Under the pieces are notes generated by a model. It was not told the origin of the DNA. It searched no databases and worked only from the letters and a program-made list of their open reading frames with translations. Of a stretch of DNA of 64,000 bases, positions 44,869 to 64,000 are shown one piece after another. The position numbers and the translations under genes are program-made. The first letter of the stretch is position 1. Each line of letters begins with the position of its first letter. This DNA comes from Devosia sp. SD17-2 (GTDB lineage: Bacteria; Pseudomonadota; Alphaproteobacteria; Rhizobiales; Devosiaceae): contig NZ_CP104002.1 in assembly GCF_029201565.1 (NCBI RefSeq), positions 1,629,001 to 1,693,000 of the forward strand. Reading direction: 5' to 3'.

Positions 44869-44871
44869 GGG

Positions 44872-44901
44872 AAAAGTCTGCGGCGGGCGAACCCGCCGCA
44901 G
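44872..44901 (-). terminator. intercistronic hairpin with short T-run between binding protein and permease
   Basis: On the minus strand a perfect ten-bp stem CTGCGGCGGG/CCCGCCGCAG with a TTCG tetraloop is followed by ACTTTT. It lies between the iron-binding protein and permease genes and would partially terminate transcription or protect the upstream message. Confidence 0.7.
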
Positions 44902-44908
44902 TGTCGGT

Positions 44909-45934: not shown

Positions 45935-46000
45935 AATAGTCTCCTCTTGGTGCACAGCATCAAGGGCGGCGGAGGCCTGTTTTCGCGCCCATACCGGCGC

Positions 46001-46028
46001 ATTACTCATGCCTGACTTTTGAAGTCAA
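46001..46028 (-). promoter_or_regulatory. predicted promoter of the iron-binding protein gene
   Basis: Minus strand TTGACT (46028-46023), a 16-base spacer and AGTAAT (46006-46001). The -35 hexamer lies inside the TGA-N9-TCA motif, so a bound regulator would block RNA polymerase. Confidence 0.5.
46013..46027. promoter_or_regulatory. IRO-type (RirA) iron operator
   Basis: TGACTTTTGAAGTCA is an exact TGA-N9-TCA palindrome, the iron-responsive operator bound by RirA in Rhizobiales. RirA represses iron-uptake genes when iron is sufficient. Its position over the predicted -35 of the binding-protein gene fits repression. Confidence 0.75.
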
Positions 46029-46044
46029 GTAATATTCGCGCAGA

Positions 46045-46059
46045 TTAGAACTGTTCTAA
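46045..46059. promoter_or_regulatory. ICE-type (Irr) iron-control element
   Basis: TTAGAACTGTTCTAA is a perfect palindrome fitting the Irr iron-control element core TTAGAA-N3-TTCTAA. It lies 17 bases upstream of the RirA-type site. Irr acts under low iron; an ICE upstream of the promoter would be consistent with activation. Confidence 0.75.
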
Positions 46060-46086
46060 CCTTTTGAATGTGCTGAACTATTTGGC

Positions 46087-48306: not shown

Positions 48307-49212
48307 TTAGCCGAAATTGGCCAGATCCTGCACGCCGCGGTGGAAGCGGGCGAGCTTGGCGTAGAAATCTTCGAGAATGTAGCGGATGTCGATCGAGTCA
48401 TAGACCTTGATCGGACGGTTTTGGCCGTTGTGGATGTAGTGCATGTGCGGGCTGAACTCGGGCGCCGGACGCCACTCGTAGGTGCCGCCCATCGGGTTGA
48501 GGATCACCGACAGCGAGGGTGTGTCGCCGAGCGAACGGTGCTCGATCGGGCCCTGATGCACGCGAAGGTTCCAGTCGATCAGCTGATCGACGAGATATTT
48601 GCCGATCGGGCCCTTGTCCTCGCAGCGCTCCTGCAGCTCGGCATAGCTCACCGCCATCATGCGATAGACGGTGGACGGGATCTGCCAGACCTGAACGTTC
48701 GAGCGCATCACCACATTGGCGGCGGCAATGTCGTTCATCAGGTTGAATTCGCGACCGCCCGAGGGCCAGACGCCGCCACCGATCCAGACACAGATGACGT
48801 TCCGCTCGTTGAGCCGCGGCTCCATCAGGATGGCCGAGGCCATGTCGGTCAGCGGCCCAAGGAAAGCGACATAGAGCGGACGGTCGTCGTCCTTCATTGC
48901 CTCATCGATGATCAGCTGGGCGCCGGGCGAGGGCACGGCGGTCTGCTCATCCGGCAGGGCCTTCGGCGCGCCATTGGCGACCGGGATACGGCCTTCAAGG
49001 TCCATCAGCTTGAGCAGATGATCGATCTCGACGCGGCTGTCCTCCATCGAGGTCTTCGAGCGGTGATCGCCGAAATGGGCGGCGATGATGCCGTGGAAGT
49101 CGAAGGTCGGGGTCAGGAGCGCATGAACGATGGTGAACTGGTCGTCAGCTTCGTTCTTGGCGTCTGTATTGAGGATCAGACGGGCGCGCTTTTCGCGGGG
49201 TAGAGTGGTCAT
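48307..49212 (-). CDS. nucleoside-hydrolase-like protein
   Basis: A 301-residue relative of the inosine/uridine-preferring nucleoside hydrolase family, Ca2+ enzymes that cleave N-ribofuranosides. The metal-binding N-terminus reads ILNTDAKNEADDQF, where the canonical form is DxDxxxDD; the spacing differs but the ADD pair is kept. Other family-like parts are YVAFLGPLTDMASAIL and WIGGGVWPSGGREFNLMNDIAAANVV. As last gene of the split-transketolase operon (ATGA overlap with the isomerase gene), it may act on a pentofuranoside rather than a nucleoside; this is inference. Confidence 0.82.
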   Translation of the reverse strand: MTTLPREKRARLILNTDAKNEADDQFTIVHALLTPTFDFHGIIAAHFGDHRSKTSMEDSRVEIDHLLKLMDLEGRIPVANGAPKALPDEQTAVPSPGAQLIIDEAMKDDDRPLYVAFLGPLTDMASAILMEPRLNERNVICVWIGGGVWPSGGREFNLMNDIAAANVVMRSNVQVWQIPSTVYRMMAVSYAELQERCEDKGPIGKYLVDQLIDWNLRVHQGPIEHRSLGDTPSLSVILNPMGGTYEWRPAPEFSPHMHYIHNGQNRPIKVYDSIDIRYILEDFYAKLARFHRGVQDLANFG

Positions 49213-50201
49213 TCCTGCTCTCCGAGTGCGCCGAAGAGGGCCTTCTGCGCGATTTTCATGGCGCCGATGGCGTCGTGGCGGCTCTGGGCTTCCTGCAGAG
49301 CGTCGAAGTCCAGGCGATCAAGACCCTTGGCTGCGGCCTTGAGGAAATCGATGGCGTGGGTCGCGGTGGCGACACTGTCCTCGCGGAACGGGAACTGATC
49401 CAGCTGCCAGACGCCTTCCCACTTGTTCTTCTTGAGCACGTAGAAGAACTCGAAGAGTTCGAGCGGATGGAGGCTCCCGGCGACGAGATCGTCGTCCCAG
49501 GCGCGATAATTGTCGTTCACGTCCATCCCGAAGAGGCGGCCATGGTCGATGGCGAGCTGGGCCGAGTCGGCAGCAGATTCACCGCCCATGATGGCGTGGC
49601 CGAAGTCGAGCAGGATGCCGACGTTCGGCAGGCCGATCTTCTCGATGCCCAGAATGGTGCGGGCAACCGAACCAAAGCTCATGCGCACGCGGGGTTCGCG
49701 CGGCTTGTATTCGATGACGAATTTGAGGTCCGGATTCTCGGAGGCGAGCTGGCCGACGCCGTCGAGCGAACGCTGCCACTGGGTCGAATAATCGACCTGG
49801 AAGGGGTAGTCCCAGCCGTCCTGACCGGGCCACAGCTTGACGTAGTCAGCCTTGTGGAAGCGGACGACGTCGCAGGCGGCAGTGATCAGCTCATGCGCCT
49901 TGCGGCGGATGCCGGCGTCGGGGTTGGTGAAGGCGCCCTTGACGAAGTCGCGGGTGTAGATTTCCGGCGTGATGCCGATGACCGAGAGATTATTGCGATC
50001 GAGCACTGCCTTGATCTGGGCGTCCGAGAACTCGCCACCAAAATAGGGCCAGTTCAGATCGACGACCGAAAGGTCCTTCACCTGGCCGGCAATGTCGATG
50101 GCCTCGATGATGTTGCGCGGCAGGCCGTAGCCGTCGGTGGCATAGCGGTCAAGATAGGTGGCAAAGTGCCAGATACCGGCGCCGAAGCGGGGTGTGGTCA
50201 T
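49209..50201 (-). CDS. TIM-barrel sugar isomerase, candidate D-apiose isomerase
   Basis: A 330-residue protein of the sugar phosphate isomerase/epimerase (xylose-isomerase-like TIM barrel) superfamily. Likely metal ligands are the Glu in FVIEYKPREPR, the Asp in GILLDFGHA and the Asp in GMDVNDNYRAWDDD. Starts ATGACCAC at 50201, overlapping the kinase stop as ATGA, and overlaps the next gene the same way. Next to an FGGY kinase and a split transketolase it fits the ApsI step, D-apiose to D-apulose, of the known apiose transketolase pathway. Alternatives are isomerases of other pentoses or branched sugars. Confidence 0.8.
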   Translation of the reverse strand: MTTPRFGAGIWHFATYLDRYATDGYGLPRNIIEAIDIAGQVKDLSVVDLNWPYFGGEFSDAQIKAVLDRNNLSVIGITPEIYTRDFVKGAFTNPDAGIRRKAHELITAACDVVRFHKADYVKLWPGQDGWDYPFQVDYSTQWQRSLDGVGQLASENPDLKFVIEYKPREPRVRMSFGSVARTILGIEKIGLPNVGILLDFGHAIMGGESAADSAQLAIDHGRLFGMDVNDNYRAWDDDLVAGSLHPLELFEFFYVLKKNKWEGVWQLDQFPFREDSVATATHAIDFLKAAAKGLDRLDFDALQEAQSRHDAIGAMKIAQKALFGALGEQE

Positions 50202-51700
50202 AGGGTTCCTCCGGAATTCTGTAGATCGTGTCGGCCTGCTGCCAGCGTCTGCTGCATTGCGGACTGCCAGCGTTGGCGATGTGTAATGCGCTTATCGTCG
50301 TCCATCGCCGGGGAGAAGTGCCTGGCAGCGGGAACGCCGGGCATGGAAATGCCAAGAGACGAGAAGGCGAGGGCGGCGGCGCCCAGCGCGCTGACTTCGG
50401 GCGCGGCGGCGACGGCAACCGGGCGGCCCAGAATGTCGGACTGGAACTGCATCAAGAGACCATTGCGCGAAGCCCCGCCATCGGCGCGCAACTGGCCGAG
50501 CGCCTCGCCCATATCGGCTTCCATGGCCGAATAGACGTCCGACACCTGAAAGGCGATGGCTTCGAGCGCGGCCCGTGCCAGATGCGCCGGCTTTGTACCG
50601 AGGGAGAGGCCGGTGATGGTGCCGCGTGCATCGGATCGCCAATAGGGCGCGCCAAGACCCACGAGTGCCGGCACAAATGCCACGCCATTGCTGTCGTCAA
50701 CGGTTTCGGCCAGTGCCGACAGTGCAGCCGCGTCGGCGAGGCCGAGCAGTTCAGCGGCAAAGGCGGCGGTCTGCCCGGAAACCGAAATATTGCCCTCGAG
50801 CGCGTGGAACACCGTGCCGCCCTGGCTCCAGGCGATGGTGCTGGAAATGCCATGGCTGGAGCGGACGCGGCCTGGCGTCAGCGCCATAAGCGAGGTGCCA
50901 GTGCCATAGGTGGCCTTCACGGTGCCGGGCGCGCGCACGCCATGACCGAAGAGGGCAGCGTGGGAATCGCCAATCATGGCGAGGATGGGCGTTCCGGCGG
51001 GCAGGGCGGTTGCGCCCTCTGCCGTGTCGCCAAAGCGCGTATCGGAGAATTTGACCTCAGCGAGCATGGACTGCGGCACGCCGAAGAGGGCACAGAGCTC
51101 AGCGTCCCAGCTGAGCGTGTCGGTGTTGAAAAGCTGCGTGCGCGAGGCGTTGGAATGGTCGGTGGCATGCACAGCGCCGCCGGTGAGCGACCACAAGAGC
51201 CAGCTGTCCACCGTGCCAACTCGAAGCTTGCCCTCTTCAGCGCGAGCCCGCGCGCCGGGAGTATTGTCGAGCAGCCAGGCGATCTTGGCGGCCGGGAAAA
51301 GCGGGTCGAGCGCGAGGCCGGTTTTGGCTTCGATCGCCTCCGCATGCCCGGCGTCGCGAAGGGCATCACACTTCGGGGCCGACCGACGGCACTGCCAGAT
51401 GATGCAGGGGCCGATCGGTTCTCCGGTAGCTGTATCCCAGACGACGATAGACTCCCGCTGATTGGAAATGCCGATGCCGACGATCTCGGCATGACCCGCC
51501 TCAGCGACCACCGCAGCGATAACAGTCTTGACCCCATCCACCAGCGCCGTTGCCGATTGCTCGGCCCAGCTGGGGTGTGGATAGGTGACGATGTTGGGCA
51601 CCGACGCCTGGAGATGGACGGTGCCGGCAGCATCGACCAGCAGTGCCTTGGTGTTGGTGGTGCCCTGGTCGATGGCGAGGATGAGGCCGGATGCGGTCAT
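50198..51700 (-). CDS. FGGY family carbohydrate kinase, candidate apulose kinase
   Basis: A 500-residue sugar kinase. The N-terminal phosphate-binding motif LAIDQGTTNTKALLVD and the C-terminal FGGY signature region ADGGASRNGLLMQFQSDILG are present, along with GDSHAALFGHG and ATYGTGTSLM. The sequence is close to glycerol kinases, but the operon has no glycerol genes. Between an isomerase and a two-subunit transketolase it fits ApsK, which phosphorylates D-apulose at C4. Overlaps both neighbours by four bases (ATGA), so translation is coupled. Confidence 0.85.
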   Translation of the reverse strand: MTASGLILAIDQGTTNTKALLVDAAGTVHLQASVPNIVTYPHPSWAEQSATALVDGVKTVIAAVVAEAGHAEIVGIGISNQRESIVVWDTATGEPIGPCIIWQCRRSAPKCDALRDAGHAEAIEAKTGLALDPLFPAAKIAWLLDNTPGARARAEEGKLRVGTVDSWLLWSLTGGAVHATDHSNASRTQLFNTDTLSWDAELCALFGVPQSMLAEVKFSDTRFGDTAEGATALPAGTPILAMIGDSHAALFGHGVRAPGTVKATYGTGTSLMALTPGRVRSSHGISSTIAWSQGGTVFHALEGNISVSGQTAAFAAELLGLADAAALSALAETVDDSNGVAFVPALVGLGAPYWRSDARGTITGLSLGTKPAHLARAALEAIAFQVSDVYSAMEADMGEALGQLRADGGASRNGLLMQFQSDILGRPVAVAAAPEVSALGAAALAFSSLGISMPGVPAARHFSPAMDDDKRITHRQRWQSAMQQTLAAGRHDLQNSGGTL

Positions 51701-52656
51701 TTCTTGCGGGCGATGGTCTGGCGGACGGCGTCGGCGATGCCGGCTTCATTGAGCCCGAAATTGTCGAACAGCCATTCGGCCGAGCCTGTCGGCACAAAGC
51801 CGGGGAAGCCGAGGATGCGCATGGGCACGGGATTGGTGGTGCTCACCACCTCGGCCACGGCGCCGCCGAGCCCGCCGCGCACGGAATGCTCTTCCACGGT
51901 CACGATGGCGCCGGTGTCGATGGCGGCGGCGATCGCCTCTTCATCGAGCGGGTTGACCGTCGACATGTTGACGACGCGCACCGAAATGCTTTCGCTGGTG
52001 AGGGCCTTTGCCGCAGCAACAGCGCGATGGACGGTTGTGCCGTTGGCGATGATGGTGGCGTCGGAACCCTCAACAAGGGTCTCGGATTTGCCGATCTGGA
52101 ATTTTGCCCCGGCGGGACGCTCCAGTGCCGGCACGGCCATGCGGCTGACGCGGACGAACACCGGGCCGTCATAGGCCGCGGCCGCCTTGATCGCCTCGGC
52201 CGTCTCCCAGGGGTCGGCCGGCACGATCAGCTTCAGATTGTTGAAGAGGCGCAGCCAGGCCAGGTCTTCGATGGAGTGGTGGGTCGGGCCAAGCTCGCCA
52301 TAGGCGACGCCGCTCGACTGGCCGATCAGCTTCACATTGACATTGGAATAGGCGATGTCCGCCTTCACCTGCTCCAGCGCGCGACCGGTGATGAAGCACG
52401 AGGCCGCGGAAACGAACGGGATTTTCCCGCCGTTGGCAAGACCGGCGCCGACGGCCACCAGCGTCTGTTCGGCAATGCCGACATTGACCATGCGCTCGGG
52501 GAATTTCGTGCGGAAGCCGCCGAGTTTGGACGAGCCGACGCTGTCGCTGACCACGGTCACGATGCGCGGATCGGCTGCGGCAAGGGCCTCGATGGTCGAG
52601 GCAAAACTGTCGCGGCAGTCAAAAAGACCGGCTTTTGCAGGGGCTGCAGCGCTCAT
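51697..52656 (-). CDS. transketolase C-terminal subunit
   Basis: A 319-residue protein with the pyrimidine-binding (Pyr) and C-terminal transketolase domains: TVVSDSVGSSKLGGF, VGIAEQTLVAVGAGLA with the Glu that activates thiamine diphosphate, SSGVAYGELGPTHHSIEDLAWL and VEEHSVRGGLGGAVAEVV. The other half of the enzyme is the adjacent upstream gene, overlapping by one base (TGATG). Split transketolases serve sugar-specific routes, including apulose 4-phosphate transketolase (ApsTb-type), which yields dihydroxyacetone phosphate and xylulose 5-phosphate. Substrate assignment is inference. Confidence 0.9.
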   Translation of the reverse strand: MSAAAPAKAGLFDCRDSFASTIEALAAADPRIVTVVSDSVGSSKLGGFRTKFPERMVNVGIAEQTLVAVGAGLANGGKIPFVSAASCFITGRALEQVKADIAYSNVNVKLIGQSSGVAYGELGPTHHSIEDLAWLRLFNNLKLIVPADPWETAEAIKAAAAYDGPVFVRVSRMAVPALERPAGAKFQIGKSETLVEGSDATIIANGTTVHRAVAAAKALTSESISVRVVNMSTVNPLDEEAIAAAIDTGAIVTVEEHSVRGGLGGAVAEVVSTTNPVPMRILGFPGFVPTGSAEWLFDNFGLNEAGIADAVRQTIARKK

Positions 52657-53495
52657 CAGACCAATTCCGCCATGGCTTGTTCAAACTGTTCCTGGTTGGG
52701 CACGCCATGATGCCAAGAGACATTATCGTGCATGAAACTGACGCCCTTGCCCTTGAATGTATTGGCAATGACGCAGAGCGGCTTGCCGCGTCCCCTAGGA
52801 GAGGCCGAGAGAACATCGAGCAGCTGGCCGTGATCATGGCCGTCGACCACTTCCACATGCCAGCCGAAGGCGCGCCACTTGTCATCCAGCGGATCGAGCG
52901 AAGCGGTGTCCTCGGTGCGTGCACCCTGCTGCAGGCGATTGCGGTCGATGATCAGGGTGAGGTTCTCGAGCTTGCGGTGCGCGGCGGTCAGCGCCGATTC
53001 CCAATTGCTGCCTTCCTGGAGTTCGCCGTCGCCGGTGAGCGCAAAGGTGCGGAAATCGGCATTGTCGAGCTGACCGGCAATGGCAATGCCCGTCGCGACC
53101 GGCAGGCCGTGGCCGAGCGGGCCGGTATTGGTCTCGACCCCCGGCAGATAATTGCGATTGGGGTGGCCGTTCAGCATGGAGAGCGGCTTCATGTAGGTGT
53201 TGAGGTCGGCCTCGGGAAAGAAGCCTGCACGGGCCAGAACGGAATAGAAAGCGCCGGTGCAATGGCCCTTGCTCATCACGAAACGGTCGCGGGCGGGGTC
53301 GCGTGGATTTGCCGGATCATGGCGCAGCACGCCGAAATAGAGCGTCGCCAAAATGTCGGCCGCGCTGAAATCCCCCCCTGGGTGACCTTGCCTGGCCTCA
53401 TACACCATCTGGAAACTGCGGCGGCGAATCCACAGCGCCTGGGTGGCGATGTCGGCGACGCGGTCGATTTTCAGGGGTGTTGCTGGCGATGACAC
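52656..53495 (-). CDS. transketolase N-terminal (thiamine diphosphate) subunit
   Basis: A 280-residue protein equal to the first third of transketolase. GHPGGDFSAADILATLYFG, SKGHCTGAFYSVLA, GPLGHGLPVATGIAIA and the cofactor motif TGDGELQEGSNWESAL...IIDRNRLQQ are intact. First gene of the five-gene leftward operon. I place the start at GTG 53495, with GGAG upstream; a frame reaching 53603 has no ribosome-binding site. Together with the next gene it forms a two-chain transketolase, candidate ApsTa-type. Confidence 0.9.
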   Translation of the reverse strand: MSSPATPLKIDRVADIATQALWIRRRSFQMVYEARQGHPGGDFSAADILATLYFGVLRHDPANPRDPARDRFVMSKGHCTGAFYSVLARAGFFPEADLNTYMKPLSMLNGHPNRNYLPGVETNTGPLGHGLPVATGIAIAGQLDNADFRTFALTGDGELQEGSNWESALTAAHRKLENLTLIIDRNRLQQGARTEDTASLDPLDDKWRAFGWHVEVVDGHDHGQLLDVLSASPRGRGKPLCVIANTFKGKGVSFMHDNVSWHHGVPNQEQFEQAMAELV

Positions 53496-53806
53496 TTTTG
53501 TCTCCGGCGGACGACATGGGCGCTTGACCGATGTCTGGGGGCGGGGCTGATCATGCCAGAGCGAGCCAGGCTGATCGACAGGATGGTGCGGCGTTACTGT
53601 CACGCTGCGTCCTGATGATTGCTAACCTGCGATTTTCATTCGCGCAATGCTGAAATGTTTGGATTCTTGCGTTTTTTCTCGGTCTTGGTTCGAAGTGGCA
53701 GGTTTGATTATGCTGGCGTCGTGCATTGTGGGCCTGAAGTGCCCGTAAACTGGCGTTTATGGCCTAGTAGATTCTTTCGACCTGTCATTTTCTGCGGAAC
53801 AGGCCA

Positions 53807-53835
53807 TTGACACTCTCGTTATCCGACCATATCCG
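53807..53835 (+). promoter_or_regulatory. predicted promoter of the ABC importer operon
   Basis: TTGACA (53807-53812), a 17-base spacer and TATCCG (53830-53835). The -35 matches the sigma-70 consensus exactly; the -10 is weak, as expected for a regulated promoter. Confidence 0.5.
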
Positions 53836-53841
53836 TAATTA

Positions 53842-53872
53842 ATCGCAAAAAAATAACAAACTAAATTGCGAT
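53842..53872. repeat. inverted repeat, candidate operator
   Basis: ATCGCAA (53842-53848) and TTGCGAT (53866-53872) are perfect inverted heptamers separated by 17 A-rich bases, right at the predicted transcription start. Centre-to-centre distance is 24 bases, a bit more than two helical turns. A dimeric repressor site is possible. Confidence 0.45.
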
Positions 53873-54033
53873 GCGCTGTGCGGGTATGCGCCAGTGGCGG
53901 GTGGATTCACGGTTGACCGGACATGGGCGGCGCCAGGCGGCTGTTGCCGGATGTTCGTGTGGGTTGGCTTGTCATCAAAGTGCCTGCTTTGCTGGACGAC
54001 GCCAGTCACGCGTCGCCGGTGTGGAGGAAAGAT

Positions 54034-55935
54034 ATGAACCGGCTTGGCCGACTGTTAATGACGTCCGCGGTGGGCGCTCTCACGACCACCACCGCATTTG
54101 CGCAGGCGATGACCGACGTCGGTACGCCGCGCAGCGAAACCCTGATCGTGCAGACATTCGATGGTCGCGCGGCCAACCCAAGTGCCCAGAACCCGCTCAA
54201 CTCCTACGCCATCTGGCGCGGCTTCCGTGAGCTGGGCTGGGGCTATCTCTGGGAAATGGATACGGCGACCGGCGTGTCCTATCCGGAAATGGCCGATGGC
54301 TTCCCGGAAGTTCTGAACGAAGAAAACACGCAGTTTCGCATCAAGATCCGCGAGGGCATCACCTGGAGCGACGGAGTCGAGTTCACCACCGACGACATCA
54401 TCTTCTCGCTCGATACCGCCTTCAAATACCGCGACAAGCTGACCAACGTCGCCAGCGCGGTGGTGTATATCAAGAGCTACAAGAAGATCGACGACTACAC
54501 CTTCGAGCTCGAGACGGTGAACCCGTCCTATGATCTGACGACGCGTTTCGGTGTCTATACCTGGGGCACCCCGTTCAACTGGGTTCCAAAGCACGTGTTC
54601 GAGCCGCTCGGCGACGAAGTCGTGACTTTCCAGAATGCGCCCGCCGTTACCCTCGGGCCCTACAAGATCAAGGAATTCGATCCCAACGGCTTCTGGCAGC
54701 TGTGGGAGCTGCGTGAAGACTGGCAGAACTCGTCCTGGGGCAATCTCGGAGAGCCCAAGCCGAAGTACATTCTCTACAAGGATTTCGGCGCTGAAGAGAC
54801 CCGCGCGCTGGCCTTCGTCCAGAACCAGTACGACGTCGACACCTTTATGAGCCCCGACAGCATCGATGCTGCCAAGGCCCGCAATCCCAAGGTCGAAACC
54901 TTCTCCGCGACCTTCCCCTATCACGACATGAACGACGCCTGCTCTTATGGCGTCTACATCAACCAGCAGCGTGCGCCTTACGATATGCCGGAAGTGCGCT
55001 GGGCTCTCGCCTTGTCGCTCAACCTCTCGCAGGTGGGCATCAGCGCCATGAGCGGCCAGTTCAAGGCTGCGGCCCTGCCGCTGCCCGACACCCCCATCAC
55101 CGGACCGATCTTCTACGACGCCAATCTCGAAGCGCTGAAGAACCTGACCATCGGCGATGGCTACAAGCCATTCGACACCGAGTTCAGCACAAAGCTCGTC
55201 GAGACCCTGGCTGCCCAGGGCATCGACCAGTCCCTGCTGCCGACCGGCGACGCCGTCAACGAAGGCTTCGGTGTGGGTTGGTGGAAGCATGATCCGGCAG
55301 AAGCTGAAAAGCTCCTCGCTTCGGTCGGCATGAAGAAGGGTTCAGACGGCTTCTACACGCTTCCCGATGGCTCGCCCTGGATGATCGAATTCGTCATTCC
55401 GGGCGACTGGAACAAGGTGCTGCAGCGTCTCGGCTTCTCGATTGCCGACAGCTGGCGCCAGGCTGGCTTCAACGTCAATGCGCGCCAGGTGGACAATGGT
55501 GAATTCACCACCGTCCAGAACACCAATGCCCGCAACGAGTTGGCAATCAACTGGTCCAACACCTGCGTGTACAACGCCAACTGGCTCGGCAACTGGAACC
55601 AGTTCCGCGAAAGCAACATCAAGCCGGCAGACTCCACCGATCCGCTGAGCGGCAACTATGCCCGCATCACCGATCCGAAGGTTCTGGCGCTTGTGGATGA
55701 AGGTGCTGCGCTGCCGCTCGACGATCCGAAGTTCGTCGAAAATGGCCAGAACATCGCGCTTCAGATCGCCAGCGAGATGCAGATCATCAACCTGATGAAC
55801 ATCCCGACCACGATCCCGACCAACAGCACCTATTGGACCAATTTCCCCAAGCAGGACAACTTCTACGCCGCTCCCTACACCTGGTGGAGCTCGTTCAAGA
55901 AGGCTGTGGTCTCCATCGAGCCGACCGGTCAGTAA
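54034..55935 (+). CDS. ABC transporter substrate-binding protein, family 5
   Basis: A 633-residue periplasmic binding protein of the peptide/nickel/oligosaccharide family 5. Signal peptide MNRLGRLLMTSAVGALTTTT then AFAQ. The mature part shows FRIKIREGITWSDGVEFTTDDIIFSLD, the family hallmark, and continues through NLSQVGISAMSGQFKAAALPLPDTPI. Start at ATG 54034 behind GGAGGAAA. Family 5 members with this length often bind oligosaccharides rather than peptides, and the downstream hydrolase genes favour a sugar ligand here. Confidence 0.9.
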   Translation: MNRLGRLLMTSAVGALTTTTAFAQAMTDVGTPRSETLIVQTFDGRAANPSAQNPLNSYAIWRGFRELGWGYLWEMDTATGVSYPEMADGFPEVLNEENTQFRIKIREGITWSDGVEFTTDDIIFSLDTAFKYRDKLTNVASAVVYIKSYKKIDDYTFELETVNPSYDLTTRFGVYTWGTPFNWVPKHVFEPLGDEVVTFQNAPAVTLGPYKIKEFDPNGFWQLWELREDWQNSSWGNLGEPKPKYILYKDFGAEETRALAFVQNQYDVDTFMSPDSIDAAKARNPKVETFSATFPYHDMNDACSYGVYINQQRAPYDMPEVRWALALSLNLSQVGISAMSGQFKAAALPLPDTPITGPIFYDANLEALKNLTIGDGYKPFDTEFSTKLVETLAAQGIDQSLLPTGDAVNEGFGVGWWKHDPAEAEKLLASVGMKKGSDGFYTLPDGSPWMIEFVIPGDWNKVLQRLGFSIADSWRQAGFNVNARQVDNGEFTTVQNTNARNELAINWSNTCVYNANWLGNWNQFRESNIKPADSTDPLSGNYARITDPKVLALVDEGAALPLDDPKFVENGQNIALQIASEMQIINLMNIPTTIPTNSTYWTNFPKQDNFYAAPYTWWSSFKKAVVSIEPTGQ

Positions 55936-55953
55936 ACATCTGACGGTTTTGAA

Positions 55954-55988
55954 GCAGGGCGGCCGATCCCGGTCGCCCTGCAAATTTT
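55954..55988 (+). terminator. intercistronic hairpin after the binding-protein gene
   Basis: An 11-bp stem GCAGGGCGGCC/GGTCGCCCTGC with one wobble pair is followed by AAATTTT. It is expected to make the binding protein more abundant than the permeases. Confidence 0.7.
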
Positions 55989-56009
55989 CCGACGTCAAAG
56001 GATTTGCCC

Positions 56010-57011
56010 ATGGGTGTGCTGCGCTACGTCGCCAAGCGCCTCGGCCTCTACTTCGCGGTGCTCTTTATCGGCCTGACGATAACGTTCATGCTGCCGCGTC
56101 TGATGCCGATCAATCCGGTCGATGGTTACATCGGTCAGCTCCAGAGCCGCGCCAACGGCACGCTCACATCAGATGCAATCGCAGAACTGCGCGCCAATCT
56201 CGAAGAGCTCTATGGGCTGAACGGGGACCTGTTCACGCAATATGTGTCCTACATGAAGCGTGTGGTCTTCAGCCTCGATTTCGGGCCGTCCTTCACCTAT
56301 TACCCGCAGCCGGTTTCGGCGATGATCCTCAACGCGTTGCCCTGGACGCTGGGGCTGCTGCTGACGGCGACGCTGATCGCCTGGACACTGGGCAATATGG
56401 TGGGTCTTGTCGCCGGGTACTTCCACAAGAAGAAGGCAGCCTCGGTGCTCGAGTTCCTCGGCATCCTGCTCTACCCCATTCCTTATTACATTCTGGCCGT
56501 CACAGTGCTGCTGCTGCTGGCCTATATCTTCCCTATCTTTCCGCTCTCGCCCACGTTCCCGGTAGGACAGATGACGCCGGAAAAGATCGGCATGATCTTT
56601 TATAATTCGCTCTTGCCGGGGATCACGCTGGTGCTGGCCGGGTTCGGCTGGAACATCCTCTCGATGAAGGCCTTGGCCGTCGCGACCTCCGAAGAACCCT
56701 ATGTCACCTATGCGCGGCTCAAGGGCACGTCCAACTGGACGCGGATGACGCGCTATGTGTTCCGCAATGCGCTGCTGCCGCAGGTAACGGCCCTCGCCCT
56801 GTCGCTGGGCATGGTGTTCAACGGCGCGCTGCTGACCGAGATGATCTTCTCCTATCCCGGCATCGGCCTGATCATGCGGACCGCCGCGACGGGTGGTGAC
56901 TACAACGTCCTTTATGGTGCGATCACGCTTTCGATCGTTGCCGTCGCCACGGCCGGGCTTGTGATCGATCTCATCTATCCCCTTCTTGACCCGCGGATCC
57001 GCACGAAATGA
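56010..57011 (+). CDS. ABC transporter permease (DppB-like)
   Basis: A 333-residue membrane protein with six helices. It has the family N-terminus (LRYVAKRLGLYFAVLFIGLTITFMLPRLMP) and the ATPase-contact loop around YVTYARLKGTSNWTRMTRYVFRNALLPQVTALAL. Start ATG at 56010. It overlaps the next permease by four bases (ATGA). Confidence 0.92.
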   Translation: MGVLRYVAKRLGLYFAVLFIGLTITFMLPRLMPINPVDGYIGQLQSRANGTLTSDAIAELRANLEELYGLNGDLFTQYVSYMKRVVFSLDFGPSFTYYPQPVSAMILNALPWTLGLLLTATLIAWTLGNMVGLVAGYFHKKKAASVLEFLGILLYPIPYYILAVTVLLLLAYIFPIFPLSPTFPVGQMTPEKIGMIFYNSLLPGITLVLAGFGWNILSMKALAVATSEEPYVTYARLKGTSNWTRMTRYVFRNALLPQVTALALSLGMVFNGALLTEMIFSYPGIGLIMRTAATGGDYNVLYGAITLSIVAVATAGLVIDLIYPLLDPRIRTK

Positions 57012-57925
57012 CCGTCGACAGCAACCAAGTTGATCCGGTGGCGATCGTGACTGCGCCACCTGTTTCCGCCAAATCCGCACGCAAGGGCAGGGGCCTTCTC
57101 TGGCTCCTCAACGGGCGGCTCGCGGTGGGTCTGACCATCCTCCTCGTCATGGGCCTTGGCAGCTTTATCCTGCCGATGTTTGCCCCGGCCGACCCGTCGA
57201 TCCAGGCGACCTATATGCGCAATCTGCCGATGTCGGGCGTGCACTGGCTGGGCACCAATTCGCTCGGCCAGGACATCTTCTGGTTCCTCGTCGTTGCGGT
57301 GCGCAACTCGCTGATGCTGGGCATTCTCGTTGCAGTGGGCGTCACCATCGTGGCCACCATCGTCGGCCTCAGCGCCGGCTATATCGGCGGTGCCTTCGAG
57401 CGCTGCGTGATGCTGATCGTCGATACGTTCATCACCATCCCGCTCCTGCCGATCCTCATCATTCTCGGCGCGCTGATCCGCGGGAACACCTCGTTCTTTA
57501 CGGTCGGCCTGATCATCATCATCTTTGGCTGGGCGTGGGATGCGCGCACGGTTCGCGCCATGGCGCTGTCGCTGCGCGAGCGCGAGTTCATCAATATGGC
57601 GCGCTTCTCTGGGGCAAACACGGTGCAGGTCCTTGCCCGTGAAGTGTTCCCCTATGTGTCCGCCTATATCCTCGTGGGCTTCATCAACACCGTTCTTTTT
57701 GCCATCAATACCGAGGCAACGCTGGCGGTGATCGGCCTCTCCAAGGTCGAAGTGCCGACGCTGGGCTCCATCATCTTCTGGGCGCTGAGCTACAATGCGC
57801 TCTTTACCGGCCAGTACCCCTGGATCGTGGCGCCGATCGTGGCGACCGTGACCCTCTTCCTCGGCCTCTTCCTCACCTCCACCGGCTTCAACCAGGCCTT
57901 TGCCAGCAAGCGGGGCGTGTCATGA
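57008..57925 (+). CDS. ABC transporter permease (DppC-like)
   Basis: A 305-residue permease with a cytosolic N-terminal extension of about 30 residues, then six helices. The segment MSGVHWLGTNSLGQDIFWFLVVAVRNSLMLG is characteristic of the second permease of family-5 importers, and REREFINMARFSGANTVQVLAREVFPYVSAYIL is its EAA-type loop. Overlaps both neighbours by four bases. Confidence 0.92.
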   Translation: MTVDSNQVDPVAIVTAPPVSAKSARKGRGLLWLLNGRLAVGLTILLVMGLGSFILPMFAPADPSIQATYMRNLPMSGVHWLGTNSLGQDIFWFLVVAVRNSLMLGILVAVGVTIVATIVGLSAGYIGGAFERCVMLIVDTFITIPLLPILIILGALIRGNTSFFTVGLIIIIFGWAWDARTVRAMALSLREREFINMARFSGANTVQVLAREVFPYVSAYILVGFINTVLFAINTEATLAVIGLSKVEVPTLGSIIFWALSYNALFTGQYPWIVAPIVATVTLFLGLFLTSTGFNQAFASKRGVS

Positions 57926-58833
57926 TCCGGCTCAACGACCTCAAGATCAGCTATCGCATCGGCGGCCGCGTGATCGACGCGGTGGATGGGGTAACCCTGA
58001 CCATTCCGGACAACTGCGTCGTCGGCATTGCTGGCGAAAGCGGCTCGGGCAAGTCGACCCTGATGAAGGCGATCTACGGCGATATCCAGTCGCCCATGTA
58101 TGTCTCCCAGGGCAGCATCGACTACGGTCTCAAGGGCCGGGACGGGAAGCCGGTGACGGCTGAAAACGTGCGCGAGGAATGGTTCAAGACCATCTCCTAT
58201 GTGCCGCAAAGCTCGATGAATTCGCTGAACCCGGTGATCCGCATCCGCGACCAGTTCATCGATTTCCCAGGCACCGACAGCAACAAGAAGCGGGTGCTGG
58301 AAACGGCCCGCGCCTATATCGGCAAGCTTGGCCTGCCGCCTGAGGCGATGGATTCCTATCCGCACCAGCTTTCTGGCGGCATGCGCCAGCGCATGATGAT
58401 TGCCCTCGCAACCTTCTTCAAACCCGAGCTCATCATCGCCGACGAGCCGACCACCGCGCTCGACGTCGTGGTGCAGAAGGACATCCTGATGCTGCTCATG
58501 GAGTTGCAGGAAGAGATGGGCAACACCATCCTCGTCGTCTCCCACGACATGGGCGTGCACTATCAGGTCACCCACAAGATGCTGATCATGTATGCCGGCC
58601 GCGTCGTCGAATATGGCGATACCGACAGCGTCTTCGCCGACCCGCAGCACCCCCATACCAAGATGCTGATCGATAGCCTGCCGACCATCGGGGACGACAG
58701 CATGCGTGGCGTTCTGGCCAGCCAGGCCGGTACCGGCGGCGACAGGGTCTATCGCGTCGAGCCCCGGCTCATCGAGGTCAAGCCCAATCACTTTGTGGCC
58801 CAATCGGCCAATCTGGGCGCGGGAGCTGCCTGA
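57922..58833 (+). CDS. ABC transporter ATP-binding protein (DppD-like)
   Basis: A 303-residue ATPase. Walker A GESGSGKST, Q-loop in TISYVPQSSMNSLNPV, signature LSGGMRQRMMIALATF, Walker B LIIADEPTTALD and switch His in LVVSHDMG are intact. It ends in a C-terminal extension typical of oligopeptide-type importers. Overlaps the preceding permease (ATGA) and the next ATPase (TGATG). Confidence 0.94.
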   Translation: MIRLNDLKISYRIGGRVIDAVDGVTLTIPDNCVVGIAGESGSGKSTLMKAIYGDIQSPMYVSQGSIDYGLKGRDGKPVTAENVREEWFKTISYVPQSSMNSLNPVIRIRDQFIDFPGTDSNKKRVLETARAYIGKLGLPPEAMDSYPHQLSGGMRQRMMIALATFFKPELIIADEPTTALDVVVQKDILMLLMELQEEMGNTILVVSHDMGVHYQVTHKMLIMYAGRVVEYGDTDSVFADPQHPHTKMLIDSLPTIGDDSMRGVLASQAGTGGDRVYRVEPRLIEVKPNHFVAQSANLGAGAA

Positions 58834-59663
58834 TGACCTTCATTCTCAAGACTGAAGCCCTCAACAAGGTCTATCGCCGCGGCGGCATCGTCGGCGGCAA
58901 GAACATCCACGCCCTCAATGACGTCAACATCACGGTCGAGAGCGACAAGCCAGTCGTCATCGCGGTGGTGGGGGAATCTGGCAGCGGCAAGACCACGCTC
59001 GCCAAGACCCTGCTGCGGCTCGAGACGCCGACCAGCGGCCGCGCCATTGTCTATGACGACGTGGTGGCCGGGAAGGGCGCCATTCCCTCGCGGAAGGATT
59101 TCCTCGGGCTGGTGCAGCCGATTTTCCAGAACCCGTTCGAGGCGTTCAGCCGCTATCGTCCGGTCGATGCCTATCTGCTTGAAACGGCGCGCCGTGTTGC
59201 CGGCCTCGACGCCGCCCCCGCCGAGGCGGCCGTTGAGGTGGCGCTCAAGAATGTCGGGCTCGACTACGACGAGATCCGCGGCAAGTACACCGCCCAGTTC
59301 TCGGGCGGCGAGCTGCAGCGTATCTCGGTTGCCCGTGCGCTGATCCCGCAGCCCAAGCTGATCGTCGCCGACGAGCCGGTGAGCATGATCGACGCGTCGC
59401 GCCGCATGATCATCATCAACCTCTTCAAGCGGCTGCGCGATGATGAGGGGCGAAGCTTCGTCTACATCACCCATGACCTCGCCACCGCCTATTACATCTC
59501 CGACTTCGTGGCGGTGATGAACAAGGGCCGTGTGGTCGAGTTCGGCCCGGCCCGGAAGGTGATGTCCGATCCGCAGCACGATTATACGCGACTGCTTCTC
59601 AGCTCCATTCCCACCACGACCAGCCGCTGGCGCGAACGCCCACGGCTCGTGGCCAGCAACTAG
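58833..59663 (+). CDS. ABC transporter ATP-binding protein (DppF-like)
   Basis: A 276-residue second ATPase of the importer. Walker A GESGSGKTT, signature FSGGELQRISVARAL, Walker B LIVADEPVSMID and the His of YITHDLATAYYI are present. The region after Walker A runs QPIFQNPFEAFSRYRPVDAYL, the Q-loop. With the other four genes it makes a complete importer. A short TTTCGT/ACGAAA hairpin follows before the first hydrolase gene. Confidence 0.94.
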   Translation: MTFILKTEALNKVYRRGGIVGGKNIHALNDVNITVESDKPVVIAVVGESGSGKTTLAKTLLRLETPTSGRAIVYDDVVAGKGAIPSRKDFLGLVQPIFQNPFEAFSRYRPVDAYLLETARRVAGLDAAPAEAAVEVALKNVGLDYDEIRGKYTAQFSGGELQRISVARALIPQPKLIVADEPVSMIDASRRMIIINLFKRLRDDEGRSFVYITHDLATAYYISDFVAVMNKGRVVEFGPARKVMSDPQHDYTRLLLSSIPTTTSRWRERPRLVASN

Positions 59664-59707
59664 GGCGTTTCGTTCGCACGAAATCCCGCTTTCTGACGGA
59701 AGATCAC

Positions 59708-61303
59708 ATGACCAGGATTGCCACTGCCACCGGCGACGCGTCGCTGTGGGCCACGTACGAACTCACCCTGACTGGCCCCAGCGAGGGCAATCCGTTCCAG
59801 GATGTGGAGCTGCGCGCCAGTTTCACCCAAGGCGACCGAGTGGTGCGGGTTAACGGCTTTTATGATGGCGATGGCAGTTACAAGCTGCGCTTCCTGCCCG
59901 ACATGACCGGCACCTGGTCCTATACGACATCGAGCAATGTCTCGGCGCTCGATCAGGTAACCGGCAGCTTTGCGGTCGGTGCGGCAAAGCCCGGCCACCA
60001 TGGCCCGGTGCGTGTGTCCAACCGCCACCATTTCCGCTACGCCGATGGTACGCGCTACATCAACATCGGCACCACCGCCTATGTGTGGAACCTCCAGGGC
60101 GATACGGTGGAAGAGGAAACACTGGCAACGCTGGCGGAGGCCCCTTTCACCAAGATACGCATGTGCGTCTTTCCCAAGCACTATCGCTATAACCAGAACG
60201 AGCCCGATCGCTATCCCTTCCCGCTGGTAAAGCAGGGCAGCAGCGAATGGACCGGCAGCTTCCGCGGCGAATATGGCTGGGAGTTTGATTTCGAGCGGTT
60301 CGAGCCCGACTATTTCCGCCACCTCGAAAAGCGCATCAACCAGCTCGCCGAAATTGGCGTTGAGGCCGACCTCATTATCTTCCACCCCTATGATCGCTGG
60401 GGGTTCTCGACCATGACGCCGGCGCAGGATGACCGGTATCTGAAATATCTGACGGCGCGTCTGTCGGCGCTGCCGAACGTCTGGTGGTCGATGGCCAATG
60501 AATATGACCTGATGCCGAGCAAGACGATGGCGGACTGGGACCGGTTCATTCACATCGTCTCGGACAATGATCCGCATGGGCATTTGCTCAGCGTCCATAA
60601 TTGCTTTGCCTTCTACGATCACAACCACCCGCGCATCACCCATTCGAGCATCCAGCGCTCGGCGGCCAGTCAGACGGCGCTGTGGCGCGAGAAATTCGGC
60701 AAGCCCGTCTCCATCGACGAGTGCTGCTATGAGGGCGATATCGGCGAACTCTGGGGCAATATCTCGGCCAAGAAGATGGTTCGCCGCTTCTGGGACGGCA
60801 CCGTCAATGGCGGTTACGTCACCCATGGCGAGACCTATTACAACGAAGAGGAAAAGCTCTGGTGGGCCAAGGGCGGCAAGCTGGTCGGCGAAAGCGTCGC
60901 CCGCATCGCCTTCCTCAAGCGCATTCTTGAAGAGGGGTCGGACGAGGGGCTTGATCCTGTAAAATCCACCGGAGCCTATCGCGTCACCATGATGGGTGGC
61001 CTCGACAATGTCGTCATGCAGCAATTGTTCTCGCCCGCAGCGGGCGAGGAAGATTGGCCGCGCGCCCAGGCCTGGTGGGCCACCGCCGGACAGGCGCATC
61101 GCTACTATCTCGTCTACATGGGTGAGAACCAGCCGAGCGAACTCGATGTCGCCGTGCCACCGGGTGAGAAATATTCGGCCACGCTCATCGATACCTGGAA
61201 CATGACCGAGACGAAGCTCGCCGACAGCGTCGAGCGGGGGGACCGGCTGAATTTCGAGCCGAAACCCTATCTGGCAATGCTGTTCAAGCGCGTCGACGGC
61301 TGA
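59708..61303 (+). CDS. apiosidase-like glycoside hydrolase (DUF5060/DUF4038 type), copy 1
   Basis: A 531-residue protein without a signal peptide, so cytosolic. The N-terminal 95 residues form a DUF5060-type beta-sandwich (FQDVELRASFTQGDRVVRVNGFYDGDGSYKLRF begins it). A TIM-barrel domain related to the GH140 apiosidase-like fold follows, then a small C-terminal beta domain (DTWNMTETKLADS) like DUF5605. Probable acid/base Glu265 sits in NVWWSMANEYD and the probable nucleophile Glu338 in VSIDECCYEG, a clan GH-A layout. Together with the importer it suggests intracellular cleavage of an imported glycoside. Confidence 0.82.
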   Translation: MTRIATATGDASLWATYELTLTGPSEGNPFQDVELRASFTQGDRVVRVNGFYDGDGSYKLRFLPDMTGTWSYTTSSNVSALDQVTGSFAVGAAKPGHHGPVRVSNRHHFRYADGTRYINIGTTAYVWNLQGDTVEEETLATLAEAPFTKIRMCVFPKHYRYNQNEPDRYPFPLVKQGSSEWTGSFRGEYGWEFDFERFEPDYFRHLEKRINQLAEIGVEADLIIFHPYDRWGFSTMTPAQDDRYLKYLTARLSALPNVWWSMANEYDLMPSKTMADWDRFIHIVSDNDPHGHLLSVHNCFAFYDHNHPRITHSSIQRSAASQTALWREKFGKPVSIDECCYEGDIGELWGNISAKKMVRRFWDGTVNGGYVTHGETYYNEEEKLWWAKGGKLVGESVARIAFLKRILEEGSDEGLDPVKSTGAYRVTMMGGLDNVVMQQLFSPAAGEEDWPRAQAWWATAGQAHRYYLVYMGENQPSELDVAVPPGEKYSATLIDTWNMTETKLADSVERGDRLNFEPKPYLAMLFKRVDG

Positions 61304-61315
61304 GGAGTTCTTAAG

Positions 61316-62830
61316 ATGACCACTGTTGCACAATGGGATGTGTTCGAGGCCAGCTTTGAGGGCCCGTCCTCCGGCAATCCCTTCCTCGAGGTAAAGCTCG
61401 AAGCCTTCTTCCAGCAGAACAGCCGCGTGGTCCGCGTCCCGGGCTTTTACGATGGCGACGGAATTTTCCGTGTTCGCTTCATGCCCGACAACCCGGGCGA
61501 ATGGAGCTTTTCGACGAAGGCCAATGTGGCTGACCTCAATGGCAAGACCGGCAACTTCACTGTCACCGCTCCGCGCGACGGCGTCCATGGTCCGGTCCGC
61601 GTCGCCAACAAGTTCCACTTCGCCTATGCCGACGGCACGCCCTATCTGCCCTTCGGCACCACCTGCTACGCCTGGACCCATCAGCCGCTGAGCGAGCAGA
61701 CCAAGACGCTCGAAACCATGGCCAAGACGCGCTTCAACAAGCTGCGCATGGGCGTCTTCCCCAAGGACTATCCGTACAACGTCAATGAGGCGTTGCACGA
61801 CGTCTACCAGAAGGGCGCGGACGGCCAGTACGATTTCGACCGGCCCAACCCGGAGAGCTTCCGCCACTTCGAAAATCAGGTGAAGGCGCTGGGCGAGCTC
61901 GGCATTGAAGCCGACATCATCATGTTCCACCCCTACGATCGTTGGGGCTATTGCGACATGAGCGAGGCGCAGGACTACGCCTATGTCGAATATCTCGCCG
62001 CGCGCCTCTCGGCCTATCGCAACGTCTGGTGGTCGCTGGCCAACGAATATGACTTCTTGCTCAACACCAAGCCGATGCACCAGTGGGAGCGCTACTTCCA
62101 TATTCTGGAAGAGAACGACCCCTATGGCCACCTGCGCTCGATACACAACGGCGATCCAGAGGCCAATTACGACCACCGCAAGCCATGGGTCACCCATGTC
62201 TGCATCCAGAACTGGGACGTGAAGCGCACCGGCGAATGGCGCCTCGCCTATGGCAAGCCGGTGATCAACGACGAGCCCGAATATGAGGGCAATATCATAC
62301 AGGTCTGGGGCAGCATCTCTGCCGAGGAACTGGTGCACCGCTACTGGATCACCACCATGCGCGGCGGCTATGCCGGCCACGGCGAAACCTTCGCCAACGC
62401 CGACGATCTGCTCTGGTGGGCCAAGGGCGGCGAGCTGCACGGCGAAGCCTGGAAGCGCATCGGCTTCCTCCGCGACGTGATGCAGGAAGATGTCCAGCAC
62501 GGCTTCGAGCCCATCGATCCGATGACCCGCTACCCCTGGAATCGGGTGTCGGGTGCGCGCGACGGCGACACCACCATCATCTATTTCGGTGAGCACCAGC
62601 CAGTAATCTGGTCCGCCGGCCTGCCCAAGGATGACGGCGACTACCATGCCGATATCATCGACACCTGGAACATGACGGTCGAGCCCGCCAAGATCGTCGC
62701 TGCCCCGGAAAACCATCCGACCCGCCACGGCACAACCATCGTCCAGCGCAAGCCCGACGCCGCCTTCGCCGTGGAACTCCCTGGTCGCCCCCACCTGGCG
62801 CTGCGCGTCAGAGCTGGAAAGCGGGTCTAG
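61316..62830 (+). CDS. apiosidase-like glycoside hydrolase (DUF5060/DUF4038 type), copy 2
   Basis: A 504-residue paralogue of the preceding protein, homologous over the whole length. Shared blocks include VVRV-GFYDGDG, HGPVRV, YADGT, FHPYDRWG, NVWWS-ANEYD, LLWWAKGG-type and DTWNMT. Probable acid/base Glu244 (NVWWSLANEYD) and nucleophile Glu320 (INDEPEYEG). It lacks the roughly 20-residue insertion copy 1 has around residues 175-190, which suggests a different binding pocket. No signal peptide. Start ATG 61316, 12 bases after copy 1. The stop lies inside a nine-bp inverted repeat (AGCGGGTCT, 62820-62828; AGACCCGCT, 62844-62852). Confidence 0.82.
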   Translation: MTTVAQWDVFEASFEGPSSGNPFLEVKLEAFFQQNSRVVRVPGFYDGDGIFRVRFMPDNPGEWSFSTKANVADLNGKTGNFTVTAPRDGVHGPVRVANKFHFAYADGTPYLPFGTTCYAWTHQPLSEQTKTLETMAKTRFNKLRMGVFPKDYPYNVNEALHDVYQKGADGQYDFDRPNPESFRHFENQVKALGELGIEADIIMFHPYDRWGYCDMSEAQDYAYVEYLAARLSAYRNVWWSLANEYDFLLNTKPMHQWERYFHILEENDPYGHLRSIHNGDPEANYDHRKPWVTHVCIQNWDVKRTGEWRLAYGKPVINDEPEYEGNIIQVWGSISAEELVHRYWITTMRGGYAGHGETFANADDLLWWAKGGELHGEAWKRIGFLRDVMQEDVQHGFEPIDPMTRYPWNRVSGARDGDTTIIYFGEHQPVIWSAGLPKDDGDYHADIIDTWNMTVEPAKIVAAPENHPTRHGTTIVQRKPDAAFAVELPGRPHLALRVRAGKRV

Positions 62831-63233
62831 ATCCTCCCATTCGAGACCCGCTCCTTCGGCGGCGGACCGTGTGTGCCCCTGGCGCAGCGGTCCGCCCGTC
62901 GGCCTCTCATCCACTTCGCAGGGCGCACTGGATGTTCACAGCCAACCGCCCCGCGCCAGCGCCGCCGAATAGTCCGGCCCGCCCCGGCAACCCCAGCAAA
63001 CCGGCAAATCTCTGGGCTCGCGCGATTTTTCTGACTCAATGACAGCGCTGGAAGCCGCTCTGGTCCTGCACGACCGGAGCTGGAAGCACAGCAAAAGCCC
63101 GCACCACGCCCCGTCAAATCGCAATCTGGCGATCGCTTCGTGAAATTCCTCTTGCACTGAACCGTACCGTACGGTACGCCTCGAACGGAAATGCCCGAAA
63201 CCGTTCGGACACCAGCATGTGAGGTTGGGACTC
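62831..63233. other. intergenic region of about 400 bases, hairpins only
   Basis: No credible gene. After the hydrolase stop there is a second inverted repeat, GGCGGACCG (62861-62869) and CGGTCCGCC (62888-62896). No T-run follows either hairpin. The right end holds the palindromes of the TetR-type gene. Confidence 0.5.
63152..63207 (+). promoter_or_regulatory. TetR gene promoter with palindromic operators
   Basis: CGTACCGTACGGTACG at 63163-63178 is a perfect 16-bp palindrome. A second inverted pair, CGAACGG (63182-63188) and CCGTTCG (63201-63207), follows. A possible -35 (TTGCAC, 63152-63157) is placed so that the palindrome fills the spacer. This arrangement suits autoregulation by the adjacent TetR-type repressor. 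Confidence 0.6.

Positions 63234-64000
<767 letters not shown>

Follow-up and report, generated by a model that had tools for sequence, protein, structure and literature searches.

A candidate system for the uptake and breakdown of apiose-containing glycosides was found in Devosia sp. SD17-2, whose genome is a single contig of 4.23 Mb. It consists of two divergent operons within the stretch of 64,000 nucleotides that was analysed (NZ_CP104002.1, positions 1,629,001 to 1,693,000; hereafter the window). We hold with moderate confidence that the two operons import a small apiose-containing glycoside, cut it in the cytosol and degrade the apiose by the transketolase route. That route is already known; the importer-hydrolase module and its nucleoside-hydrolase-like (NH-like) partner are new candidates, whose specificity we infer from context. 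Apiose occurs in rhamnogalacturonan II, in apiogalacturonan and in many plant secondary metabolites.

In the proposed scheme, a small apiose-bearing glycoside would enter through an Opp-type ATP-binding cassette (ABC) importer, and D-apiose would be released in the cytosol by two hydrolases with the PF13204 fold (HYD1 and HYD2), perhaps also by the nucleoside-hydrolase-fold protein. The isomerase would then convert D-apiose to apulose, the kinase would phosphorylate apulose to apulose 4-phosphate, and the split transketolase would turn this into dihydroxyacetone phosphate and xylulose 5-phosphate. Each substrate, the importer cargo and the site of glycoside cleavage are thus predictions. If they are right, the operons name an importer and cytosolic cutting enzymes for the use of small apiosides by plant- and soil-associated bacteria, and give a testable function to DUF5060, DUF5605 and the Sde182-like nucleoside hydrolases, which so far lack a function or carry a loose name. 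They would also supply enzymes for trimming apiosylated flavonoids and saponins.

Organization of the two operons

The original prediction described two divergent operons, the rightward one made up of a five-gene family-5 importer and two hydrolases. Every gene and gene overlap was found where it had been placed, and Pfam agrees gene by gene with both operons. The features are as follows (identities are to the proteins of E. coli SE15 unless given otherwise).

48307..49212, minus strand: NH-like, nucleoside-hydrolase-fold protein, candidate furanosidase; IU_nuc_hydro/Sde182_NH-like (Pfam)
49209..50201, minus strand: isomerase, predicted D-apiose isomerase (ApsI-like); AP_endonuc_2, xylose-isomerase-like TIM barrel (Pfam); 58% to PDB 3ktc
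50198..51700, minus strand: FGGY kinase, predicted apulose kinase (AplK-like); FGGY N and C (Pfam); 43% to AplK
51697..52656, minus strand: C-terminal transketolase subunit (AptB-like); Transket_pyr and Transketolase_C (Pfam); 39% to AptB
52656..53603, minus strand: N-terminal transketolase subunit (AptA-like); Transketolase_N (Pfam); 48% to AptA
53644..53675, plus strand: operator-like conserved block in the gap that separates the two operons; pattern from 24 aligned intergenic regions
54034..55935, plus strand: family-5 solute-binding protein with a signal-peptide-like start; SBP_bac_5 (Pfam)
56004..57011, plus strand: importer permease 1; BPD_transp_1 (Pfam), with Opp/Nik-type B permease profiles below their cut-offs
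57008..57925, plus strand: importer permease 2; BPD_transp_1 (Pfam)
57922..58833, plus strand: importer ATPase 1; ABC_tran and oligo_HPY (Pfam)
58833..59663, plus strand: importer ATPase 2; ABC_tran and oligo_HPY (Pfam)
59708..61303, plus strand: hydrolase 1 (HYD1); DUF5060-PF13204-DUF5605 (Pfam); 46% to HYD2; signal peptide not evident by eye
61316..62830, plus strand: hydrolase 2 (HYD2), predicted cytosolic apiosidase; DUF5060-PF13204-DUF5605 (Pfam); signal peptide not evident by eye

Successive genes of the leftward operon overlap by 4, 4, 4 and 1 bases, and those of the rightward operon from permease 1 to ATPase 2 by 4, 4 and 1 bases; gaps of 44 and 12 bases precede HYD1 and HYD2, respectively. 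For the solute-binding protein, the ATG at 54034 is the most likely start, judged by eye from a ribosome-site-like sequence and the signal-peptide-like start. The true start of the N-terminal transketolase subunit may lie approximately 30 codons inside its open reading frame (ORF), since many relatives match over approximately 282 residues.

The catabolic operon and the transketolase route

The transketolase-type D-apiose route named in the original prediction is strongly supported by homologous gene clusters. The window isomerase is 58% identical to PDB 3ktc over its length, with long invariant blocks common to both, and 3ktc, which we take to be a Pectobacterium protein, matches the isomerase of locus L237 with 100% identity along 323 residues. 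The isomerases of L237 and of a second locus, L238, are 57-58% identical to the window isomerase over their full length, and their neighbours are homologues of AplK (44-45%), AptB (71-72%) and AptA (79%), together with a SorC regulator and a ribose-type importer. Going by these identities to E. coli SE15 proteins, we refer to the L237/L238 cluster as enterobacterial. Both apiose routes, the transketolase route and a RuBisCO-like one, reportedly go back to Carter et al. 2018.

The leftward operon resembles the transketolase-type pathway of Pectobacterium and E. coli (ApsI, AplK/ApsK, AptA/AptB; MetaCyc PWY-8089) in its adjoining isomerase, FGGY kinase and split transketolase. It differs in its surroundings, as the importer is Opp-type here but ribose-type in the enterobacterial cluster, and two hydrolases without an evident signal peptide and a nucleoside-hydrolase-fold protein are added. 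The gene names used here are those of the E. coli SE15 apiose cluster (PMC13001218), and the same source, in the portion drawn on, describes growth on D-apiose for P. carotovorum WPP14 and for cluster-bearing E. coli strains and an E. coli cluster that has no isomerase. The two D-apiose routes are cited through passages of that paper and of PMC11747546 and PMC6302742.

Comparison with these known proteins bore out the assignments of the isomerase and of both transketolase subunits. It did not place the kinase: the window kinase is 43% identical to AplK, but also 41-43% identical to the GlpK proteins of E. coli and of its own genome, which encodes a separate GlpK, so that percent identity fails to separate the two kinase classes. 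AplK was not grouped with the window kinase in a first tree. A second tree left out nine marine rows as well as L048_7018 and L187_8801, two extreme branches of the first tree that are probably wrong ORFs; in it AplK sits weakly with GlpK (support 81/61), and an approximately unbiased (AU) test did not reject a single clade of the 41 rows (p 0.276).

Linkage of the two operons in Devosia

Across 101 related genomes, full-length isomerases with at least 82% identity were found in 28 places, the window included. In three of these the contig is too short for the neighbourhood to be read (genomes G056, G041 and G037; genomes carry G numbers and loci L numbers), leaving 25 readable places. The kinase and both transketolase genes adjoin the isomerase in 24 of these; the same gene order returns in further orders and phyla, so that the arrangement exceeds what chance would give. 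The two operons also go together, a check that the original prediction had called for: an Opp-type importer is present beside the isomerase in 18/25 places, always accompanied by one hydrolase or both (the first alone was seen in G006). With importers of any kind counted, a hydrolase and an importer are found in 21/25. The three further hydrolase-bearing places (G001, G007 and G028) have a ribose-type importer instead, whose binding protein shares 74-79% identity with its counterpart in the R. johnstonii apiose cluster, and G007 has a CUT1 importer in addition. In L047 the catabolic operon has the importer-hydrolase operon on its other flank, yet both are still together.

Some places show duplication or decay. 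G012 carries two isomerase-kinase-NH copies (L031 and L028), one of them without transketolase genes, plus an isomerase fragment. L094 (G009) is seemingly decayed; a hydrolase gene there is divergent from a shortened N-terminal transketolase gene, no isomerase match was found, and the other transketolase subunit and the kinase have no clear full-length ORF. An alpha-L-rhamnosidase gene lies approximately 10 kb or less from the apiose genes in four Devosia genomes (L039, L040, L043 and L094), followed in L039 and L040 by CUT1-like permease genes; the rhamnosidase gene is a hint that the source may be plant pectin or flavonoid glycosides.

The importer

The SBP_bac_5 protein, two permeases and two oligo_HPY-type ATPases fit an Opp-type (family 5) set. 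A search of the window's own genome for the monosaccharide-type (ribose-type) importer that goes with a DUF2291 protein in the transketolase-type pathway, made with the binding protein only, gave a best match of 31%. Because the importer is of the oligomer type, the hydrolases have no evident signal peptide and no match to the monosaccharide-type apiose binding protein exceeds 31%, cleavage inside the cell is the best reading of this anatomy; the original prediction of whole-glycoside import and intracellular cleavage stands to that extent, as an argument from gene association.

It is conceivable, though we think very improbable, that the importer carries free apiose or a cargo unrelated to the hydrolases, which would then be neighbours of convenience. 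With no close ribose-type binding protein in the genome, free apiose would need another entry, which fits such a role. Against it, hydrolase genes are found inside importer operons in both the Opp-type and the CUT1 versions, and an Opp-type importer occurs together with a ribose-type binding protein in four Devosia places (L028, L034, L038 and L047), so that the two importer types are not simple substitutes.

The hydrolases accompany two unrelated apiose routes

In Devosia and part of the Rhizobiaceae the hydrolase family accompanies the transketolase route, and on Rhizobium plasmids the unrelated RuBisCO-like route; it is found within Opp-type, CUT1 or ribose-type importer operons. In R. johnstonii 3841 the RuBisCO-like apiose cluster is followed immediately downstream by a CUT1 importer operon that contains a HYD2 relative. 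This layout, OiaX included, is also found in R. tropici; R. phaseoli shares the neighbours, with OiaX outside the examined stretch. HYD2 relatives were found in 101 of 72,556 plasmid records, 82 of them Rhizobium; at least 28 records have both HYD2 and OiaX among the matches listed, with a gap of 14.5-15.7 kb in all 28. Compared with the window, the RuBisCO-like (OiaX) D-apiose/apionate pathway of Rhizobium has a 71% HYD2 relative beside it, likewise in a sugar-importer operon, but its catabolic enzymes are different and its importers are of the CUT1 and ribose types.

Among 397 genomes of the order there were 23 with HYD2 relatives (E<=1e-60), 63 with OiaX relatives and five with the isomerase (both E<=1e-100); ApnL was searched at 1e-20. 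Five of the 23 HYD2-bearing genomes have the isomerase, and G009 has remnants of the transketolase route only. OiaX lies 14-16 kb from the hydrolase in G245 and G447. Streptomyces NBC_00841 carries, within 41 kb, isomerase, transketolase and Opp-type importer genes (24-38%), a DUF5060-PF13204-DUF5605 protein behind the importer genes, and relatives of OiaX and OiaK (42% and 35%).

Relatives of the RuBisCO-like route are also encoded in the window's own genome, approximately 260 kb away (L226, C1:1949560 to about 1955000). They match a phosphogluconate-dehydrogenase-type protein (58%), ApnL (34%), OiaX (44%) and OiaK (46%), with Opp-type importer genes about 5 kb off, and perhaps give this cell a further pathway, for a second branched sugar acid.

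Isomerase relatives outside Devosia

A scan with one genome per species gave 332 isomerase relatives, the best 80 of which were grouped using flanks of 10 kb; because of these short flanks, and since many loci are cut by contig ends, absences among them are weak. Twenty-four were Devosia-like, several being genomes already counted above, with the kinase in 24, both transketolase genes in 20, the NH-like gene in 16, SBP5 in 14 and the hydrolase in two. All 28 Rhizobiaceae-like loci have a ribose-type importer, with transketolase in 22, the kinase in 21 and a CUT1-HYD2 operon within the examined stretch of seven. Six loci were actinobacterial, each with kinase and transketolase, four with an NH-like gene and none with a hydrolase. 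The remaining 22 were from marine Alphaproteobacteria, 20 of them with a split transketolase, 19 with an FGGY kinase and none with a hydrolase. Weaker isomerase relatives within the order (30-36%; L049-L054) lie in other contexts, and two Pantoea plasmid isomerases (58-61%) were set aside as not within an apiose cluster.

The marine isomerases (L189, L191, L192, L196-L201 and L203-L215) are 75-78% identical to that of the window, often with ribose-type importers nearby, and one of the 22 bears the title Pelagibacteraceae. These loci suggest that open-ocean bacteria may possess a route for an apiose-like sugar; no pairing of SAR11 with apiose was found in the open-licence literature. Two Streptomyces plasmids have isomerase-transketolase(-kinase) genes surrounded by genes for pectin-type enzymes, by annotation GH28, beta-L-arabinofuranosidase, pectinesterase and GH95 in L062, and GH127 in L225.

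The marine loci bear on whether the pathway serves a related sugar, the isomerase clade of Devosia, Actinobacteria and marine Alphaproteobacteria having diverged in substrate from the enterobacterial ApsI. The open ocean is an unexpected site for plant apiose, and next to isomerases so close to the window's the marine kinases are only about 30% identical and group with GlpK, on long branches, in the first tree; the kinase trees also fail to show orthology to AplK. Such divergence is nevertheless improbable in our view, as long runs of invariant residues are common to the window isomerase and 3ktc, and the same gene families occur together with an apiose-type importer and with the RuBisCO-like apiose route.

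Identity of the hydrolases and the NH-like protein

HYD2 has a PF13204 domain and fold, the fold having been compared for HYD2 only. Two candidate catalytic glutamates, E244 and E320, are invariant in 35/35 rows and both are kept in HYD1, though the GH140 residues were not aligned to them; in the GH140 apiosidase BT1012 the catalytic pair is Asp and Glu. Compared with GH140 apiosidases, the hydrolases here add an N-terminal DUF5060 and a C-terminal DUF5605 and are apparently cytosolic. A phmmer search of PDB with HYD2 to E 0.001 (HYD1 was not searched alone) returned 4n0r only and no GH140 structure, and a hydrolase profile (A3) run to E 10 returned 4n0r and one unrelated chain, without 5msy or 8t9w. 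The 4n0r protein, BVU_0362, is titled putative glycoside hydrolase and comes from Bacteroides. In the open-licence literature searched, DUF5060 came up as a passing mention in one paper.

The NH-like protein has a nucleoside-hydrolase fold and keeps what we take to be the metal- and sugar (ribose)-binding residues. It differs from inosine-uridine nucleoside hydrolases in its low identity (approximately 20%), a Gly before the C-terminal metal Asp and a longer metal loop. Such a longer loop is a feature of Sde182-like proteins. The Gly lies directly ahead of D230 in 29/29 NH-like rows, at what is presumably the position of the catalytic His of nucleoside hydrolases, although the sequence-based phmmer alignment with 1ezr places the His-bearing residues opposite a gap. 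The original prediction counted this protein as part of an unfamiliar arrangement, but the protein is not peculiar to the window: the gene lies beside the isomerase operon in 18/25 readable Devosia places and 4/6 actinobacterial loci. No pairing of a nucleoside hydrolase with apiose was found in the open-licence literature. In L060, on a Croceibacterium plasmid, a 71% isomerase adjoins a secreted-looking NH-like protein, with GH65 and TonB-receptor genes nearby.

Several results weigh against cytosolic release of apiose by these hydrolases, or against the scheme as a whole. HYD2 has no sequence-level match to the GH140 apiosidases (BT1012, PDB 5msy; 8t9w), and its fold resembles a GH5 mannanase no less than GH140; as a substrate test the fold comparison was discarded, since it does not choose between mannanase-like and apiosidase-like. 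No hydrolase was seen in the examined stretches of four of the 25 Devosia places (L026, L030, L031 and L043, in G031, G022, the second copy of G012, and G021). Although OiaX and ApnL relatives occur in five of the 23 HYD2-bearing genomes, they are on contigs other than the hydrolase's in three (G146, G264 and G343), and 12 of the 23 (ten of one genus, G233 and G349) have no isomerase, OiaX or ApnL at the cut-offs used. The Rhizobium plasmid records are mostly from one species complex, close kin rather than independent cases. Plasmids of Martelella, Aureimonas, R. grahamii, Shinella and Sinorhizobium BG8 have HYD2 and CUT1 genes with no apiose reference genes in about 15 kb around, apart from a DhaK relative (36%) near the Martelella module. 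Finally, the trees did not establish the window kinase as an AplK orthologue.

Thus, of the original interpretation, the transketolase apiose route held up well, while kinase orthology and the term apiosidase-like are its weak parts. The PF13204 domain and fold agree with that term, but it proves little because HYD2 does not match the GH140 structures by sequence, and genomic context is better evidence for the role of the hydrolases. The leftward operon could degrade apiose while the bond cut by the PF13204-fold hydrolases is a different one, such as a GH5-like beta-mannoside or glucoside within an apiose-bearing oligosaccharide, and the nucleoside-hydrolase-fold protein releases apiofuranose. 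Known relatives of the latter act on furanosides. We regard this as unlikely, given that the catabolic operon has no close NH-like gene in the examined stretch of 7/25 Devosia places (one has a 32% relative behind the hydrolases), and hydrolases lie near apiose genes in Rhizobiaceae loci, where an NH-like gene was seen in 0/28. Returning to apiose release by HYD1 and HYD2, a bolder and tentative proposal is that DUF5060-PF13204-DUF5605 proteins might be a second, cytosolic apiosidase family outside GH140, carried as a portable importer-hydrolase module that has joined two chemically unrelated apiose routes and three kinds of importer, and that the nucleoside-hydrolase-fold partner might be a furanosidase that has moved from nucleosides to O-linked apiofuranosides.

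Regulation and neighbouring genes

The alignment of 24 intergenic regions, the window's included, shows that the block at 53644-53675, upstream of the transketolase genes, has been kept throughout Devosia. Its pattern has one match in the window, with 0 mismatches, against a chance expectation of 0.05 when up to 3 mismatches are allowed. It was exact in 29 of 246 loci scanned, several of which are the same places or the pattern's own source. No exact inverted repeat was common to more than 2 of the 24 regions.

A DeoR-type regulator gene is present at the locus in 23/23 other isomerase-bearing Devosia genomes searched; in the 16 Opp-type places with divergent operons it separates the transketolase genes from the importer. 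The enterobacterial pathway has a SorC regulator instead. In the window the DeoR gene is absent between the operons (53604-54033), with no trace by tblastn, and the operator-like block remains; the closest relative that the genome has at another site is 67% identical, and no apiose genes surround it. A metagenome-assembled genome (L136), collinear with the window along 14.2 kb at 95% nucleotide identity, also lacks the gene, and its absence therefore looks like a lineage trait rather than an assembly error. A TetR gene at 63219-63881 was set aside as a regulator, as no match was listed in the examined stretches of relatives. On the other side of the two operons, at 43135-47130, the window holds another ABC importer (SBP_bac_6, a long permease and an ATPase), which by eye is iron-type and seemingly unrelated.

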